This document shows, piece after piece, positions 29,651 through 44,533 of a stretch of DNA of 64,000 bases. The notes below the pieces were generated by a model. It saw only the letters and a list, made by a program, of their open reading frames with translations, ran no database searches and was not told where the DNA came from. Each line of letters starts with the position of its first letter. Position 1 is the first letter of the stretch. The translations under genes and the position numbers were made by a program. The stretch lies in contig JAEUJY010000034.1 of NCBI GenBank assembly GCA_016794525.1, positions 1 through 64,000 of the forward strand. The letters are read 5' to 3'. Origin of the DNA: Myxococcales bacterium (GTDB lineage: Bacteria; Myxococcota_A; Polyangia; Haliangiales; Haliangiaceae).

Positions 29651-30193
29651 CTACTTCGCCAGCGTCGCGGTGGTGGCACCCGCGGCCTTCAGCGCGTCGG
29701 TCAGGTCGATCGTCACCTTCTCGGCGACGATCATCATCTCGCAGGTGTCGGCGCTCGGATCGTCGCACACCAGCACCGGCATCGGCTCGCCCTTGGCGTA
29801 GAAGGCCGTGTAGACCGGCTTCTGCGGGCAACCGCCGCCGCGATCACGCTCGAACGACAGCGTCGCACCGTCGATCTTGATCGGCACGTCGGTGACCTTG
29901 TGCATGCCCGCGGGGCATGCCGCGCCCTCGACCACCGCCGTCTTCGCCTGTGCCGGATGCGTCGCCCCCGATCCGGTGCCCGTGCCCGTGCCCGTGCCCG
30001 TGCCCGTGCCCGTGCCCGTGCCCGTGCCCGTGCCCGTGCCCGTACCCGTGCCCGTGCCCGTCCCCGCATCCACGGCGATCGCCGAACCCGTCCCGCTCCC
30101 CGCCTTCCCGCCGTCAACTTGCTTCTTGCTCTTGCATCCGGCGACGGCGACCAGGACCGAGAGACTCATCATCACGCACAGCGTTCGCTTCAT
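29651..30193 (-). CDS. Lipoprotein with Gly-Thr dipeptide repeat (copy A of a duplication)
   Basis: 180 residues from the ATG at 30193. The lipobox is VAVAGC, followed by KSKKQ. Residues about 40-72 are a (GT)n tract encoded by the hexamer array. The C-terminal domain has VVEGAACPAGMHKVTDV, an [15 protein letters not shown] segment, VLVCDDPSADTCEMMI and ends [16 protein letters not shown]. It is a close paralogue of the gene at 31698; the first 20 residues and the tail are nearly the same. The function is unknown; four to five Cys suggest a disulfide-stabilised domain. Confidence 0.8.
   Translation of the reverse strand: MKRTLCVMMSLSVLVAVAGCKSKKQVDGGKAGSGTGSAIAVDAGTGTGTGTGTGTGTGTGTGTGTGTGTGTGTGSGATHPAQAKTAVVEGAACPAGMHKVTDVPIKIDGATLSFERDRGGGCPQKPVYTAFYAKGEPMPVLVCDDPSADTCEMMIVAEKVTIDLTDALKAAGATTATLAK
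29976..30061. repeat. GTGCCC hexanucleotide array, about 14 copies
   Basis: Uninterrupted head-to-tail GTGCCC units except for one GTACCC variant at about 30043. The array lies inside the lipoprotein gene and encodes Gly-Thr dipeptides. Because the unit is six bases, gains or losses of copies keep the reading frame. Confidence 0.95.
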
Positions 30194-31697: not shown

Positions 31698-35100
<3,403 letters not shown>

Positions 35101-37855: not shown

Positions 37856-38650
37856 TCACCGTCCCGCGAACTCACGCACGCACGCGATTGCGTCGCTGTC
37901 GTAGTAGCGGGACTGATCGCAGTAGGTGATCGTGCGGTCGGCGGCGCGCCCCAGCGGGGCCGCCGCGGCCAGGCACGCGCGGGCGTCGCTGTCGTAGTAC
38001 ATGGCGGCGTCGCACGCGGCGACGGCGCTGGCCTCGAGTCGGCCGTCGATCGCCGTGGCGATGCACGCCTGCGCGTCGCTGTCGTAGTACATCGCGGCGT
38101 CGCAGGCGGTGACGACCGCCGCTGCGCGCCAGCCGTCCCGCGCGCCGCGGGCGGCGGTGGCCACGCAGGTGCGTACGTCGCTGTCGTAGTACATGGCGGC
38201 GTCGCAGGCCGCGATCACCGGCGCCGGATCGGCCGGCGCGACCAGCGCCTGCTGCATGCAGGCCAGCGCGTCGCTGTCGTAATACATGGCGGCGTCGCAG
38301 GCCGCGATCGTCGCGATCGGATCGAACGCGGCCTGGGCGGCCACGCCGACGCACGCCGCGGCCGTCGCGCCGTCGTAGATCGCGCGCCGGCAGGCGGCGT
38401 CGATGGCCATCAGGTCGCGGGCCGGACCGTCGTCGTGCCAGCCGCCGGGTCGGTCGTCGTGCCAGCCACCCGGGCGGTGGGGGGCGCCGGGGTTGCTCGG
38501 CCGGTCCGGGCGGCGGTCGTCGCGCCAGCCGCGGTCGTCGCGCCAGCCGCGATCGCGGCGACCGTGACCGCGCCCGCGATCGGCCGCCGCGGGGATCGTG
38601 AGCGCGGCGAGCGCGGCCAGGGCGAGGAGCGTGCGCGTGGAGGTCCGCAT
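37856..38650 (-). CDS. Secreted protein with six CDAAMYYDSD repeats
   Basis: 264 residues from the ATG at 38650. A signal peptide (LLALAALAALTIPAAA) is followed by a basic/aromatic region rich in RGWRDDRGW and GGWHDDRP. Then come six repeats of about 30-35 residues built around (A/T)CDAAMYYDSDAxAC: one degenerate (ACRRAIYDGATAAAC), four near-perfect, and a last TYCDQSRYYDSDAIAC. Each has two Cys ten residues apart, likely a disulfide or a metal-bound loop, with spacers that vary. I recognise no family. It diverges across the palindrome-rich region from the Uma2-like gene. Confidence 0.75.
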   Translation of the reverse strand: MRTSTRTLLALAALAALTIPAAADRGRGHGRRDRGWRDDRGWRDDRRPDRPSNPGAPHRPGGWHDDRPGGWHDDGPARDLMAIDAACRRAIYDGATAAACVGVAAQAAFDPIATIAACDAAMYYDSDALACMQQALVAPADPAPVIAACDAAMYYDSDVRTCVATAARGARDGWRAAAVVTACDAAMYYDSDAQACIATAIDGRLEASAVAACDAAMYYDSDARACLAAAAPLGRAADRTITYCDQSRYYDSDAIACVREFAGR

Positions 38651-38733
38651 GAGCCAACGACGGCGCCAGCGTGCCGGGTATTCACCGGGTAGCGACATGC
38701 GCCTGCGGTGCCACGCGGGATTCGACCACGACG

Positions 38734-38950
38734 TCCACGTGGGACGCCCCGGTCGCTGTCCCACGTGGGACGGCCACGGCAGGAATCAATCGGCTGGTCC
38801 CACGTGGGAGATGAGCTCGACCGGTCGATCCCACGTGGGAGATCGGCTGGTCCCACGTGGGAGATGAGCTCGACCGGGCAGTCCCATGTGGGAGCCCGCG
38901 CGGCGGGTCCCACGTGGGAGATGCGCTCGACCGGGCAGTCCCACGTGGGA
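38734..38950. repeat. Array 1 of the palindrome TCCCACGTGGGA
   Basis: Six exact copies start at 38759, 38798, 38829, 38851, 38908 and 38939. One has CATGTG instead of CACGTG (38882), one lacks a C (38734), and a decayed one lies at 38711. Copies are spaced 22-39 bp, and the linker GATGAGCTCGACCGGGCAG or a close variant recurs three times, so the array grew by duplication of larger units. It differs in linkers from array 2 at 43465, so only the palindrome is conserved. Confidence 0.95.
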
Positions 38951-38985
38951 GACCGCGCGGCTGGGGAGAGGTCAATCGGCGCGCG

Positions 38986-39069
38986 CTGTCCGGGCCCGGA
39001 CAGCGTCGCGTGTCCGGCCCGTGGCCGGAACTGTCCGGGTCACCGGACAGATGTCCGGGATCCGGACAT
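38986..39069. repeat. Four palindromes with TGTCCGG/CCGGACA arms
   Basis: CTGTCCGGG-CCCGGACAG (38986-39003, perfect), TGTCCGG-N7-CCGGA (39011-39029, partial), CTGTCCGG-GTCA-CCGGACAG (39031-39050, perfect arms) and ATGTCCGG-GAT-CCGGACAT (39051-39069, perfect arms). The same arms occur at 7588-7645 near the REP-associated transposase, suggesting one dispersed family of extragenic palindromes. Confidence 0.9.
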
Positions 39070-39126
39070 CGCGCCTCGGGATGTCGCGGGGTTGTGGCAG
39101 GCACGGGACGTGCTGTGGGAAGGGCC

Positions 39127-39756
39127 ATGTTGCAGGTCATCGATGAGCGGAGCCCGGCGGGCGAGATCCGGCTGCGGCCGTTGCGGCGCGTGGTGTTCGA
39201 GCGCCTGTGTCAGTGCGGCGGCAGCGACGCCACCGCGCTCGAGCTCGTGTGCGGCGCCGTCGTCGATCGCCGCGACGACGATCCCGAGCGTGCGGGGGTG
39301 GTCGCGCACGTCGCCGCGCGGCTGCGCGCGCAGGCCGGACCGGCGGGCCGGATCGCGGTCCGCGCCGCCTGGCCGCTCGACGACTACTCGATGCCGCGGC
39401 CGGACGTGCGCGTGGCAGCGCTCGGCGATCACTGCGAGCTTGGCCTGGGCACGACGCCGCTGGTGATCGAGGTCGCGCGCCGGCACGGCGGCGATACCGC
39501 TCGCCATGAGCTGTTCGCGCGGGCGCCGCTGGCCGAGTACTGGCAAGTCGATCTGGCGGCCGGGGTGATCGACGCGTGGCGCGGGCGCGACGCGAGGTTC
39601 GGCGGCTGGGCGACGGTCACGCGCTATCGCCGGGGCGACATCGCGATCCACGCCACGCGGCCGGCGCTGGCGTTGACGGTCGACGAGGTCGTGTCGCGTG
39701 TGCAGGGGCCTCGGCGCTTGCGGTCGGGGCCCGGCTCTGCGACACCCTCCCCATGA
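39127..39756 (+). CDS. Uma2-family (DUF820) PD-(D/E)XK-like protein
   Basis: 209 residues. The Uma2 layout is visible: DDYSMPRPDVRVA (the PD), then TPLVIEVARRHGG (the E-V strand), then HELFARAPLAEYWQVDLAAG, corresponding to the K-x3-YA-x2-GV-EYWIVD segment. The position usually holding Lys before the YA appears to be His/Arg here, so catalytic activity is uncertain. The N-terminal 60 residues are atypical. Uma2 proteins are restriction-endonuclease-like and their biological role is not settled. Its stop overlaps the aldolase start (ATGA). Confidence 0.65.
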   Translation: MLQVIDERSPAGEIRLRPLRRVVFERLCQCGGSDATALELVCGAVVDRRDDDPERAGVVAHVAARLRAQAGPAGRIAVRAAWPLDDYSMPRPDVRVAALGDHCELGLGTTPLVIEVARRHGGDTARHELFARAPLAEYWQVDLAAGVIDAWRGRDARFGGWATVTRYRRGDIAIHATRPALALTVDEVVSRVQGPRRLRSGPGSATPSP

Positions 39757-40514
39757 CCCCGACCCCGTCCGTCCGCGATCAGGTCAGCGCCGAGGAGTGG
39801 CAGACCCGCGTCGATCTGGCAGCGTGCTACCGCCTGGTGGCGCGCTTCGGTTGGGACGACCTGGTCTTCACGCACATCTCGGCCCGCGTGCCGGCGTCCG
39901 ACCATCACTTCCTCATCAACCCGTACGGCATGTTGTTCGAGGAGATCACGGCGTCGAGCCTGGTCAAGATCGACCTCACCGGCGCCAAGGTGATGCCGAG
40001 CCCGTACGACGTCAACCCGGCGGGCTTCACGATCCACAGCGCGATCCACGCCGCGCGCGAAGACGCGCAGTGCGTGCTGCACACCCACAGCCTGAACGGC
40101 GTCGCGGTGTCGGCGCAGCGCGGCGGCGTGCTGCCGCTGTCGCAGCAGTCGATCTTCGTGCTGGCGTCGCTGGGCTACCACGACTACGAGGGCGTCGCGC
40201 TGCGCGACGACGAGAAGTCGCGCCTGGTCCGCGACCTCGGCGACCGCGGCTTCCTGATGCTGCGCAACCACGGCCTGCTCACGGTGGGTGAGTCGATCGC
40301 CGATGCGTTCCTGCGCATGTACGTGTTCGAGGCCACCTGCGCGATCCAGCTGCGCGCGCAGGCCGGTGGCGGCGAGCTGATCTCGGTCGACCCGCGGATC
40401 ATCGCCGGCGCGGCTCAGCAGCAGGCGGCGGTCACCCGCGGCCTCGGCGCGGGGCTGGCGTGGCCGGGGCTCCTGCGCAAGCTCGACCGCGACAACCCGG
40501 GCTATCGCCTGTAG
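39753..40514 (+). CDS. Class II aldolase/adducin family protein
   Basis: 253 residues from the ATG of a 4-bp overlap. FGWDDLVFTHISARVP, FLINPYGMLFEEI, HTHSLNG and LRNHGLLTVG supply the zinc-binding histidines and the phosphate-loop region of the class II aldolase fold. DLTGAKVMPSPYDVNPAGFTIHSAIHAAR split around the centre is typical of the adducin-like subgroup. It probably acts on a sugar phosphate or a similar hydroxy-acid; the substrate is unknown. It ends adjacent to the convergent gene. Confidence 0.8.
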   Translation: MTPTPSVRDQVSAEEWQTRVDLAACYRLVARFGWDDLVFTHISARVPASDHHFLINPYGMLFEEITASSLVKIDLTGAKVMPSPYDVNPAGFTIHSAIHAAREDAQCVLHTHSLNGVAVSAQRGGVLPLSQQSIFVLASLGYHDYEGVALRDDEKSRLVRDLGDRGFLMLRNHGLLTVGESIADAFLRMYVFEATCAIQLRAQAGGGELISVDPRIIAGAAQQQAAVTRGLGAGLAWPGLLRKLDRDNPGYRL

Positions 40515-41243
40515 TCAGCGTGGTGGCAGCGTCACGCGCGCGGGGACGCCGTCGACGGTCACCGTCTTGCCGCTGGCCAGCGTCGCCTTGACCGTGATGT
40601 CGACGCCGCCCTCCAGCAGCGCGACCGGGAAGCTGGCGCGGCAGCCCAGCTCGCCGATCAACGCCATCGGGATCCGCGCGCGGCCCTCGGCCGCGACCGG
40701 CGTGAGGAGCGTCGTCCACGGCCCGCCGTCGTCGCGGCGGAGCTTCACCGTCAGGTAGGCGACCGGCGCCGTCGACGCGAACTGCAGCGCGAGGGCGTCG
40801 ACCTGCTCGGGGCCGCTGCTGTGCATGCCGCGCGACGCGACGTAACGGTGGATGACGGCGGTGACGCGGCGCACGCGCGGCCTGCGTTCGATCGTGTACG
40901 TCCCAAGCACGACCCGGGTCCCGGCGTCAGCGCCCGGTGGCGTCGCGGTGACCTCGAGGCGGCCCGTCCGTGCGCTGTCGATCCGCAGCTCCACCAGGTG
41001 CGGGTATCCGTTCGACAGCGGCTTCACGTCCACCGTCACGGGCTCGCCGTCGATCGAAGCCGCGAACGCGGGGGTGCCGGGGCGCTCCGCGAAGTACACG
41101 AGCCGCGGCCGCGGCGGCAGCACGGCCGTGGACGCTGGCGCGAGCCCGACCATGCCCGCGCACGGCGCGAACGCGTGCGCGCGTGGCGGGTGCGCCATCA
41201 TCACGAACAGGCCCACGAGTGTCGTCACGACGATCCGCGCCAT
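40515..41243 (-). CDS. Secreted hypothetical protein, beta-sandwich type
   Basis: 242 residues with a signal peptide (VVTTLVGLFVMMAHPP, then AHAFAPCAG). The mature part is all-beta in appearance (VYFAERPGTPAFAASIDGEP, GRLEVTATPPGADAGTRVVLG, YLTVKLRRDDGGPWTTLL), consistent with two Ig-like modules. I recognise no family. It follows the DUF2279 gene on the same strand by 40 bp and may form an operon with it. Confidence 0.6.
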   Translation of the reverse strand: MARIVVTTLVGLFVMMAHPPRAHAFAPCAGMVGLAPASTAVLPPRPRLVYFAERPGTPAFAASIDGEPVTVDVKPLSNGYPHLVELRIDSARTGRLEVTATPPGADAGTRVVLGTYTIERRPRVRRVTAVIHRYVASRGMHSSGPEQVDALALQFASTAPVAYLTVKLRRDDGGPWTTLLTPVAAEGRARIPMALIGELGCRASFPVALLEGGVDITVKATLASGKTVTVDGVPARVTLPPR

Positions 41244-41282
41244 GCGGACACTGTTCCACGCTCCCCACCGAGGCGCACGCCG

Positions 41283-42317
41283 TCACTGCTCGGGCGCGGG
41301 GCCCGACGCGGCCCGCGTCGAGCCGACGACCGGCAGGATCGAGAACGACGGGGCCATGACCTCGAACAGGTTGGCGCCGATCGACCGCGTCGTCCGCGCC
41401 AACCGGCCGGAACGCGCGCCGAGCGTGCGGGCGAGGACGTGCTGGAGATCGACGGTCACTCCGAGGAAGAGCCGCTGCGTCGGCACAGCCTCGGGTGGGG
41501 CGTCGGGCTTGTACTTGCGGGTCTCGAAGCCGACGCCGACGTCGACGTAGGCGAGCCCATCGGCCAGCCACGCGGGCGTGGCGCGCGGCAGCGGCACGGC
41601 GCCGAGGTGCAGCCCCAGGAAGTAGGTCTCGCCCGAGTAGTCCTCGGCGATGTTCAGGCTGTTGCCCTTCTTCGGGCCGTTGTACTCGCCACGCCACAGC
41701 CCCAGGTACTCCTCGCTGGGCCAGTACGCGACGCGGAAGTCGAGCCAGCGGTCGACGGCCGGCACCGTCGTGGCCAGCAGCGCGAACACGGCGCCCGCGG
41801 TGTTCATCGTCAGGTCGCCCGGCGAGAAGCGGTAGTAGAAGCCGTCCTTGACCTCGACCGCGAGGAACAGCCCCCACGACAGCGCGGTGCCGGCGATGGC
41901 CGCAGGGACGCGGGTGTAGCCGCCGGCGCGCAGCACGCCGGTCGTCGCGCGCGCCAGCACCATCGTCGCCCAGGCGTGGCCGAGCTTGTCGGCGCCGCCG
42001 GCATACGTGTTGCGCCCGAACCAGCCGTCGCCGCCCCAGCCGAACTCGTCGAGCGACTCGACGTCGCGGTACCACGCGAGGTAGGCCCACGTGCTGAAGC
42101 CGGCGTACAGCGCGCCCACGCCGAGCGCCGCGCCCAGCCGGTGGTCCGGCGGCGGCGGCGGCTCGGTGAACGGGACCGCGGCGCCGCGATCGAGCCACGG
42201 CTCGAGGCACGGCTCGTCGCGGCGGGTCAGCCCGCAGTCGGCGGCCGCGGGGTGGACGCCGACGGTCGTTGCCAGGGCCATGGCGATCAGCGCGGCGACG
42301 GCGAGGCGCACGCGCAC
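41283..42317 (-). CDS. DUF2279-like exported protein
   Basis: 344 residues with a signal peptide ending in HPAAA. The diagnostic segment is NTYAGGADKLGHAWATMVLAR, the DKxGH motif of DUF2279/YfiM-like periplasmic proteins. Further small hydrophobic helices follow (GTALSWGLFLAVEVKDGFYY, FSPGDLTMNTAGAVFALL). The C-terminal part contains beta-rich AYVDVGVGFETRKYKP and LFLGVTVDLQHVLA, which could be outer-membrane strands. Known members lack a biochemical function. Confidence 0.65.
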   Translation of the reverse strand: MRVRLAVAALIAMALATTVGVHPAAADCGLTRRDEPCLEPWLDRGAAVPFTEPPPPPDHRLGAALGVGALYAGFSTWAYLAWYRDVESLDEFGWGGDGWFGRNTYAGGADKLGHAWATMVLARATTGVLRAGGYTRVPAAIAGTALSWGLFLAVEVKDGFYYRFSPGDLTMNTAGAVFALLATTVPAVDRWLDFRVAYWPSEEYLGLWRGEYNGPKKGNSLNIAEDYSGETYFLGLHLGAVPLPRATPAWLADGLAYVDVGVGFETRKYKPDAPPEAVPTQRLFLGVTVDLQHVLARTLGARSGRLARTTRSIGANLFEVMAPSFSILPVVGSTRAASGPAPEQ

Positions 42318-42390
42318 ACGCTACACGAGAATCGTCGCGACGCCCGTCACGCGGCGCGTGATCGCGGCCACGGCGCCGCTGACACGGCCG

Positions 42391-43449
42391 ATGGCTCGCG
42401 CGAGACTCATCGGCAGGATGGACGAGCCCGTCACCGAGCGCCTGGTCGATGTCGACGGGGTGCCGGTGCGCGTGCGCACCGAACGGCAGCGCGTCGCGGT
42501 CACGGAAGGCGAACAGTGGAACGATGGGGTCAACGTCGTGGCCTCGAGCCCGGGCTGCGGCGAGCTGACGATCGACGTCGTCGCCGGAGCGCGCTGGATG
42601 GGCTTCGGCAAGAACCGCGTCGTCACCGGGGTGGCGGCGTTCGACGATCAGTACGTCGTCACCACCAGCGACGAGCGCATCGCGCCGTGGTGGTTCGGGC
42701 CCGCCGAGGCCAAGGCGATGGCCGCGACCTACGACCCGACGGCGCTGATGCCGTTCGCGCTGCGCCTGGCGCCGGGGCTGATCCAGCTGGTCGCGGGCGG
42801 CGTCACCGAGCTCGCGCTGCCGATCTCCTGGCAAGACCGCGACTCGCCGCGCTACCAGCACTACATCGCGCATGGCGCGCCGCCGATGGCGGTGACCCAC
42901 ATCGACGAAGCGATCCGGGCCGCCGGGTTCATCGCCGGGCGCAACCTGCGGCTCGCCGCGCGCTGGCGCGACCTGCTCGCGCCCCACGGGCTGGTTGCGG
43001 CGGGCCCGGCGTGGCGCACGGACGATCAATACGCGCTGGTGGTCGAGCGGGGGCGAGCGAAGATCATCGTCGACTTCCCGTGGCGGGTCGCGGCGCTGTC
43101 GACCACCGGCCTGCGGACGCGGCTCGCGGTGCGATGGCCGGTAGACGGCGCGGCGGGCATCTGGCCGCGCGCCTGGTCACGCCGCCAGCGGCCGCGCATC
43201 GACGGCAACCGATCGCTCGACCTGGCCGCCCCGTGGCACGGCGTGGCGCGCGGCGCCGTCCTCGACGGGCTGCAGGACATCGGGGGCGCGCTGGCTGCGG
43301 TGGGGGTCGACTGGCTCCTGGTCGGCGACGGGCTGCTCGCGATCGGCTGGGAACGCATCGAGGAAGATGCCGCCAAGCTGGCGGGCGCGCTCGGCTTGCT
43401 GGCGCGATGGGCGGAGCAAGCGGCCGCTACCAGCGGTCCGTATCGGTAG
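42391..43449 (+). CDS. Hypothetical protein
   Basis: 352 residues from the ATG at 42391; ATG 42418 is also possible, and the frame continues upstream over the divergent gene. There is no signal peptide or membrane helix. The sequence has many Trp-containing strands (RWMGFGKNRVVTGVAAFDDQYVVTTSDER split by turns, WWFGPAEAKAMAATYDP, RAKIIVDFPWRVAALS). The family is not recognised. It is followed by palindrome array 2. Confidence 0.55.
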   Translation: MARARLIGRMDEPVTERLVDVDGVPVRVRTERQRVAVTEGEQWNDGVNVVASSPGCGELTIDVVAGARWMGFGKNRVVTGVAAFDDQYVVTTSDERIAPWWFGPAEAKAMAATYDPTALMPFALRLAPGLIQLVAGGVTELALPISWQDRDSPRYQHYIAHGAPPMAVTHIDEAIRAAGFIAGRNLRLAARWRDLLAPHGLVAAGPAWRTDDQYALVVERGRAKIIVDFPWRVAALSTTGLRTRLAVRWPVDGAAGIWPRAWSRRQRPRIDGNRSLDLAAPWHGVARGAVLDGLQDIGGALAAVGVDWLLVGDGLLAIGWERIEEDAAKLAGALGLLARWAEQAAATSGPYR

Positions 43450-43464
43450 GCGTTCAAGCGCGCC

Positions 43465-43673
43465 TCCCACGTGGGACATCCGGAGCGCCTCCCACGTGGG
43501 ACATCCCGCTGCCTCCCACGTGGGACATTCGGAGTGCCTCCCACGTGGGACATCCCGCTGCCTCCCACGTGGGACATCCGGAGTGCCTCCCACGTGGGAC
43601 ATCCGGCGCGCCTCCCACGTGGGACATCCCGCTGCCTCCCACGTGGGACATCCGGAGTGCCTCCCACGTGGGA
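43465..43673. repeat. Array 2: nine exact copies of TCCCACGTGGGA at 24-25 bp spacing
   Basis: Starts are at 43465, 43490, 43514, 43539, 43563, 43588, 43613, 43637 and 43662. Linkers are of two kinds: CATCCGGAGTGCC-like (13 bp) and CATCCCGCTGCC (12 bp, three identical copies), largely alternating. The 12-bp palindrome shows no mismatch in nine copies while linkers vary. The array occupies the 259 bp between a hypothetical gene and the aldo/keto reductase gene. Confidence 0.97.
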
Positions 43674-43708
43674 CATCCGGCGGCGGCTGGTTGGGGTAGC
43701 GTCCGGCC

Positions 43709-44533
43709 ATGGCCCCGCCCGTCCCCGTCGACATGCCGCCCATCCTCTACGGCACGGCGTGGAAGGAAGAGCGCACGCAGGCGCTGACGCTCCAGGCGCT
43801 GGCGGCGGGGTACCGCGGCATCGACACCGCCAACCAGCGCAAGCACTACGTCGAGGCGGCGGTCGGCGAGGCGATCGCCGCCAGCGGCGTGCCCCGCGGC
43901 GAGCTGTTCCTGCAGACCAAGTTCACGTACCAGCGCGGCCAGGACGATCGGCTGCCGTACGATCCCGCGGCGCCGCTCCCCGATCAGGTCGCGCAGTCGT
44001 TCGCCAGCTCGTGCAGCCACCTCGGGACCGACGTGATCGACAGCTACGTCCTCCACGGCCCGTGGGGCGCGGTGGGCTGGAGCGTCGAGGATCGCGCGGT
44101 CTGGGCCGCGATGGAGGCGCTGCACGCCGCGGGGCGCATCCGTTACCTCGGTGTGTCCAACGTCGCGGCGGCACAGCTCGAGGAGCTGCTCGCCGTGGCG
44201 CGCGTGCCGCCGACGTTCGTCCAGAACCGCTGCTACGCGCGCACCGGCTGGGATCGCGACGTGCGCGCGGCGTGCGCGCGCGCCGGCGTGGTCTACCAGG
44301 GCTTCTCGCTGCTGACCGCCAACCAGCGCGAGGTGCGCCACCCGATGCTCGCGGCGATCGGCCGCCGCCACGGGCTGGAGCCGGGGCCGACGGTGTTCGC
44401 GTTCGCGCGGACGGTCGGCATGCTGCCGCTCACCGGCTCGAGCACGCGCGCGCACCTCGACGCGGACCTGGCGGCGGTCGCCGTCACGCTGACCTCGTCC
44501 GAGGTCGACACGGTCGTGCGCATCGGCGGCTGA
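43709..44533 (+). CDS. Aldo/keto reductase
   Basis: 274 residues: AAGYRGIDTANQRKHYVEAAVGEAI split at the loop carries Asp and Tyr, QTKF the Lys and VLHGPWG the His of the catalytic tetrad. ALHAAGRIRYLGVSN is the conserved family segment, FVQNRCYAR and LTGSSTRAHLDADL the later ones. It is an NADPH-dependent carbonyl reductase of unknown substrate. Only 36 bp separate its start from palindrome array 2, so that array is likely within or next to its promoter. Confidence 0.8.
   Translation: MAPPVPVDMPPILYGTAWKEERTQALTLQALAAGYRGIDTANQRKHYVEAAVGEAIAASGVPRGELFLQTKFTYQRGQDDRLPYDPAAPLPDQVAQSFASSCSHLGTDVIDSYVLHGPWGAVGWSVEDRAVWAAMEALHAAGRIRYLGVSNVAAAQLEELLAVARVPPTFVQNRCYARTGWDRDVRAACARAGVVYQGFSLLTANQREVRHPMLAAIGRRHGLEPGPTVFAFARTVGMLPLTGSSTRAHLDADLAAVAVTLTSSEVDTVVRIGG

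Follow-up and report, generated by a model that had tools for sequence, protein, structure and literature searches.

The window considered here, the whole 64,000-nucleotide stretch that was analysed, belongs to the 9.8 Mb draft genome of a Myxococcales bacterium (177 contigs, here G000) and contains two arrays of the 12-letter palindrome TCCCACGTGGGA, hereafter PAL. Array 1 (38709..38950, no strand assigned) was reported in a preliminary description of this DNA as six exact and three decayed copies, and each of these can be located: the exact copies start at 38759, 38798, 38829, 38851, 38908 and 38939, and the decayed ones at 38882 (one mismatch), 38733 and 38709 (two mismatches each), although the last lies just left of where that description had the array begin. 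The main linker between copies is GATGAGCTCGACCGGGCAG. Array 2 (43465..43673, likewise without strand) is of the same family, with nine exact copies at 24–25 bp spacing and the linkers CATCCGGAGTGCC / CATCCCGCTGCC. The two arrays do have unrelated linkers, as first noted, and the palindrome is the element in common. Counting sites with up to two mismatches, the window has 19 against 3.9 ± 2.1 expected, a number reached by no shuffle.

Array 1 does stand between divergent genes. On its left, the minus-strand gene at 37856..38650 encodes a predicted secreted, internally repetitive protein with weak CBM_14 and Galaxin_repeat matches, and its start points toward the array from 58 bp away. On its right, the plus-strand gene at 39127..39756, with its start 176 bp from the array, encodes a protein that is only weakly Uma2-like (PF05685, E = 0.004, under the curated cut-off). 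Array 2 takes up most of the gap between two co-directional plus-strand genes, beginning 15 bp past the stop of 42418..43449 and ending 35 bp ahead of the start of 43709..44533, an aldo/keto reductase (PF00248, E = 7.5e-29).

A second set of palindromes, TGTCCGG-N-CCGGACA (38987-39002, 39032-39049 and 39052-39068, no strand), stands between array 1 and the Uma2-like gene and is outside the PAL family. The pattern TGTCCGG-N(0-4)-CCGGACA has 26 exact sites in the genome and 1–19 in congeners, and precedes the Uma2-like gene as well as several genes for HNH nucleases (L069, L071, L026). It is followed by a sigma-54-like GG-N10-GC element, here GGCACGGGACGTGC at 39100 (39100-39113), and these palindromes have the look of enhancers for a sigma-54 activator common to two nuclease-like gene families. 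The window also carries two 6-bp (GTGCCC) tandem tracts, at 29976-30066 and 32008-32122, about 2 kb apart.

Extent, anatomy and placement of the palindrome family

Across the whole genome there are 348 exact PAL copies, spread over more than 30 contigs, and none of the reversed-pattern control. Nearly all of them belong to intergenic tandem arrays, of which there are more than 35. The contexts read cover 309 of the 348 copies, made up of 35 arrays of at least three copies, the copies within HNH genes and a single orphan; about 39 lie outside these contexts. The preliminary description had offered two readings of its neighbouring arrays, a locally acting system or a mobile palindrome family; the genome-wide count contradicts the former, and PAL behaves as a dispersed family in keeping with the latter.

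Every array is a tandem repeat with a linker of its own, most commonly spaced at 24–26 bp, which is not a whole number of helical turns. A weaker asymmetric flank, CG[TCCCACGTGGGA]GAT, is common to 27 arrays (6.1 bits, against at most 2.4 in 30 shuffles). Within arrays, palindromes diverge at 4.8% of sites and linkers at 15.5%, a difference that perhaps over-estimates the conservation of the palindrome because copies were located by the palindrome itself; in a recount anchored on the linkers, which takes away this search bias only in part, 194 of 273 slots held an exact PAL and 239 had no more than two mismatches.

Exact PAL occurs 0–1 times in each of six genomes of the same genus, while some genomes of another genus of the family have up to 15 copies, again in small arrays; assembly breaks may have lowered the counts in relatives a little, as several G000 arrays sit at contig ends. 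The nearest relative, G006, which has the ParB most similar to that of G000 within the family (83%), had no PAL array in a 359-kb sample. For one syntenic gene pair the stops abut in G006 and a 563-bp gap with an array is present in G000; for another, the gap is about 115 bp without an array in G006 and about 660 bp in G000. Because congeners have 0–1 copies and these two orthologous gaps are array-free in G006, the sequence comparison indicates that the arrays are a recent, lineage-specific burst. The preliminary description would have seen a chance local expansion if arrays were missing from close relatives and, in addition, the motif were in no excess elsewhere; absence holds within the genus, but the second part, which was equally required, is strongly false.

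The arrays are intergenic and biased towards the 3' ends of genes. With genes called by a simple dicodon model trained on G000, 26 arrays have both neighbours called, and their gaps are convergent in 10 cases, tandem in 14 and divergent in two. A doubtful small ORF underlies one divergent call (L151), which leaves array 1 as the one clear case. Array starts are typically 10–50 bp past a stop, and 12 of the 14 tandem-gap arrays are closer to the upstream stop. Compared with ordinary gaps of at least 100 bp, which are 40% divergent and 8% convergent, arrays fall too rarely in divergent gaps (p = 0.0003) and too often in convergent ones (p = 2e-5), although the divergent deficit is weaker against all gene pairs of any gap length (p = 0.08). 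The divergent setting of array 1, initially taken as a hint of two-promoter regulation, is thus atypical. An operator array serving the divergent promoters at 38.65–39.13 kb is extremely unlikely: divergent starts do flank array 1, but at least 35 arrays of the same palindrome occur genome-wide, nearly all at 3' ends, and a local regulator of these genes can be rejected on that spread.

Likeness to parS and occurrences in other organisms

A single symmetric change separates PAL from the core of parS in G000, TTCCACGTGGAA; the half-sites are TCCCAC and TTCCAC respectively, and both palindromes are centred on CACGTG. Canonical parS, GTTCCACGTGGAAC, forms one cluster in G000, near rpmH-rnpA-yidC at the origin, and GTTYCACGTGRAAC has only six exact sites, all within one cluster. 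The G000 parS cluster also contains an exact PAL, the parS/PAL hybrid TTCCACGTGGGA and ACCCACGTGGGA, and this PAL is the sole copy, among the contexts read, outside arrays, array edges and HNH genes. In 14 relatives, parS clusters consist of parS alone, with no PAL or hybrid sites. Within arrays, C-to-T changes favour the position that converts PAL towards parS (10 of 18 array-level events, p = 0.005 in a test that leaves aside possible context effects on mutation rate). PAL is nevertheless not canonical parS, which exists separately and differs in sequence.

In Myxococcus xanthus, the parS consensus is TGTTCCACGTGGAACG and 22 copies lie in tandem within 3 kb (PMC3899335); PAL is likewise tandem and multi-copy, but unlike chromosomal parS it has hundreds of copies dispersed genome-wide. 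The origin-proximal clustering that is a trait of parS is not seen for PAL, with arrays on more than 30 of the unordered G000 contigs and one copy in the parS cluster. Only one ParB_N protein was detected in G000. Its recognition helix is identical in relatives without PAL arrays, which rules out an altered ParB specificity. The Caulobacter ParB residue R173 contacts parS guanine 1 (PMC7383237), and most PAL copies do not have this guanine on one side.

A scan of the whole sequence collection for two nearby PAL copies returned eight loci. In Marinobacterium weihaiense (L017:1427-1474), two copies of TGTCCCACGTGGGACA lie between a ParA-like gene and a ParB-like gene that matches ParB-like PHROGs (E = 2.4e-10), and this pair is a candidate non-canonical centromere. 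Six of the eight loci are contigs of gut Bacteroidales MAGs (L016, L019-L023), mostly with arrays of 21-bp period, and in the Tannerella array (L022) TCCCACGTGGGA alternates with the parS-like core TTTCACGTGAAA. These arrays resemble those of G000 in that they repeat the same 12-mer, along with near variants, in tandem, but belong to another phylum of other base composition and have a 9-bp A+T-rich linker; no published name for gut Bacteroidales arrays of CACGTG palindromes was found. The viral contig collection gave no PAL pair, and a phage origin was rejected on that ground. In the literature, the literal PAL motif was found only for a primate herpesvirus, which is unrelated, and nothing was found on extragenic palindromic tandem repeats in myxobacteria. 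Algal and sponge mitochondrial palindromic repeats are also short, intergenic and lineage-specific in the portions of those reports consulted (PMC4524435; PMC2800124), but they are organellar, and the likeness is one of description.

Competing explanations for the arrays

We tentatively favour, at a probability of roughly 0.4, the reading that PAL is a parS-related binding palindrome that was seeded, then tandemly expanded, and is kept by a ParB-type or other dimeric protein. PAL is here the repeating unit of a family of short extragenic palindromes that extends over the whole genome and is particular to this lineage, and its copies were presumably seeded into many intergenic places, mostly just 3' of genes. 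Each seed was then duplicated locally in tandem along with adjoining DNA, a step that follows from the anatomy of the arrays and explains why each has its own linker. The palindrome would most likely be kept intact by a dimeric DNA-binding protein that recognises it, in keeping with its lower divergence than that of the linkers and with the full codon identity of PAL in HNH genes described below. As the motif is related to parS, the leading candidate is a ParB-type protein, perhaps the cell's own ParB binding weakly, perhaps another partition-type protein. A ParB-type site is favoured because of the PAL and hybrids in the parS cluster, the C-to-T bias, the Marinobacterium locus and the alternating Bacteroidales array, and the connection to ParB, drawn from sequence, is best treated as a lead and not a demonstration. 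The single ParB_N protein with its unchanged helix, the guanine missing on one side of most copies and the spread of arrays beyond the origin count against it. On the favoured reading the arrays would act as binding clusters, present in high copy and widely dispersed, and would not switch neighbouring genes, and any benefit to the cell is presumptive.

The main rival is a satellite-like selfish or neutral repeat, spread by recombination or a mobilising activity and used by no host protein, which is a serious possibility even if the odds are against it. The palindrome would survive since the arrays are young and homogenised, and gene 3' ends, where the arrays are placed, are where they would do least harm. 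A recent burst (348 copies against 0–1 in six congeners), the orthologous gaps empty in G006, the abundance of unrelated intergenic minisatellites in both G000 and G006, and the common CG..GAT flank, which suggests shared seeds, all fit such a repeat. However, the palindrome is better conserved within arrays than its linker, the linkers are unrelated between arrays, so that only about 12–17 bp would be mobile, and no exact or one-mismatch PAL lies in any of ten Y1 transposase loci examined. G000 has 17 Y1-type transposase genes; the ten read (L092-L101) encode very similar proteins, and REPIN/RAYT mobility was rejected because none of these ten loci holds PAL within one mismatch. No RAYT was found adjacent to PAL. 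PAL resembles REP, BIME and REPIN elements as a short, high-copy, lineage-specific extragenic palindrome mostly 3' of genes, but it is an untagged perfect palindrome in arrays with array-specific linkers. Where REP/REPIN are defined, in the part of the source consulted, as 20–40 bp hairpins with a GTAG or CGTC tag (PMC3733652), PAL has 12 bp with CG/GAT flanks. Nor do the arrays have the longer repeats and unique spacers of CRISPR, given a repeat of 12 bp and linkers that return within one array. As to a possible DNA uptake sequence, a dispersed single or inverted-pair motif tied to competence, PAL copies are clustered in arrays and do not occur as scattered single sites.

An RNA-level 3'-end element that protects or terminates the upstream mRNA, as REP/BIME do, is an improbable explanation. 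Once transcribed, arrays would fold into stable hairpins, since each copy can pair with any other along its 12 bp and leave the linker as the loop, and the 24–26 bp period gives a loop of 12–14 nt; the closeness to upstream stops and the excess of convergent gaps also suit this idea. Arrays 1 and 2 fold strongly as RNA (z-scores −7.7 and −7.65), as any tandem palindrome array would. A terminator scan of 38600-44000, however, gave a single hit at 41490 and none at either array, where there is no T-tract, and an Rfam scan of the arrays had no match. Pairing alone would permit many stems, yet all arrays keep one sequence; of 45 copies with two mismatches, only 2 have stayed palindromic, and selection for pairing only, through symmetric compensatory change, was rejected accordingly. 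Array 1, moreover, is 5' of both its neighbours, and the majority of genes have no array.

It is very unlikely that PAL is a recognition or homing-related site of an expanded HNH family, with cutting and repair spreading the palindrome, although several features of that family bear on PAL. There are 30 family matches in G000, many of them fragments at contig ends, against 0–7 in congeners (G000 loci L166, L171, L176, L181, L184, L187 and L192-L194, plus the contig-end fragments). In the G000 paralogs, in-frame PAL copies that encode Ser-His-Val-Gly occur both in the linker preceding the HNH domain and in the tail, thus flanking the HNH-coding segment, and one tail (L025) holds an in-frame 36-bp PAL array; the congener copies read have no exact PAL. 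Over 11–13 paralogs the PAL codons are 100% identical, against 80% codon identity for other invariant residues. These inserts could be merely tolerated there, or the nuclease could be involved. Against such a role, no arrays were seen beside HNH genes except those tails, the DNA examined from more distant members of the family that have PAL arrays (L033-L037) contains no HNH gene, and the congener G002 has seven HNH matches yet no PAL.

What the family may mean

Under the favoured ParB-type reading, a bolder version, and a long shot, is a distributed centromere-like system in which a ParB-class clamp would load at 35–45 PAL arrays alongside the canonical origin parS. If true, it would give one lineage dozens of additional sites at which chromosome folding or segregation could nucleate. 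PAL is best regarded as a novel form of extragenic palindromic repeat, perhaps derived from parS or of ParB type, with any function putative. The family shows how a sequence may be seeded and amplified in one lineage as a perfect 12-bp palindrome whose linkers differ from array to array. Should a ParB-type protein bind PAL, nature would have tested here the distance from the origin over which centromere sites can spread; should no protein do so, the family would be a clean bacterial case of satellite-like DNA growth at gene ends.
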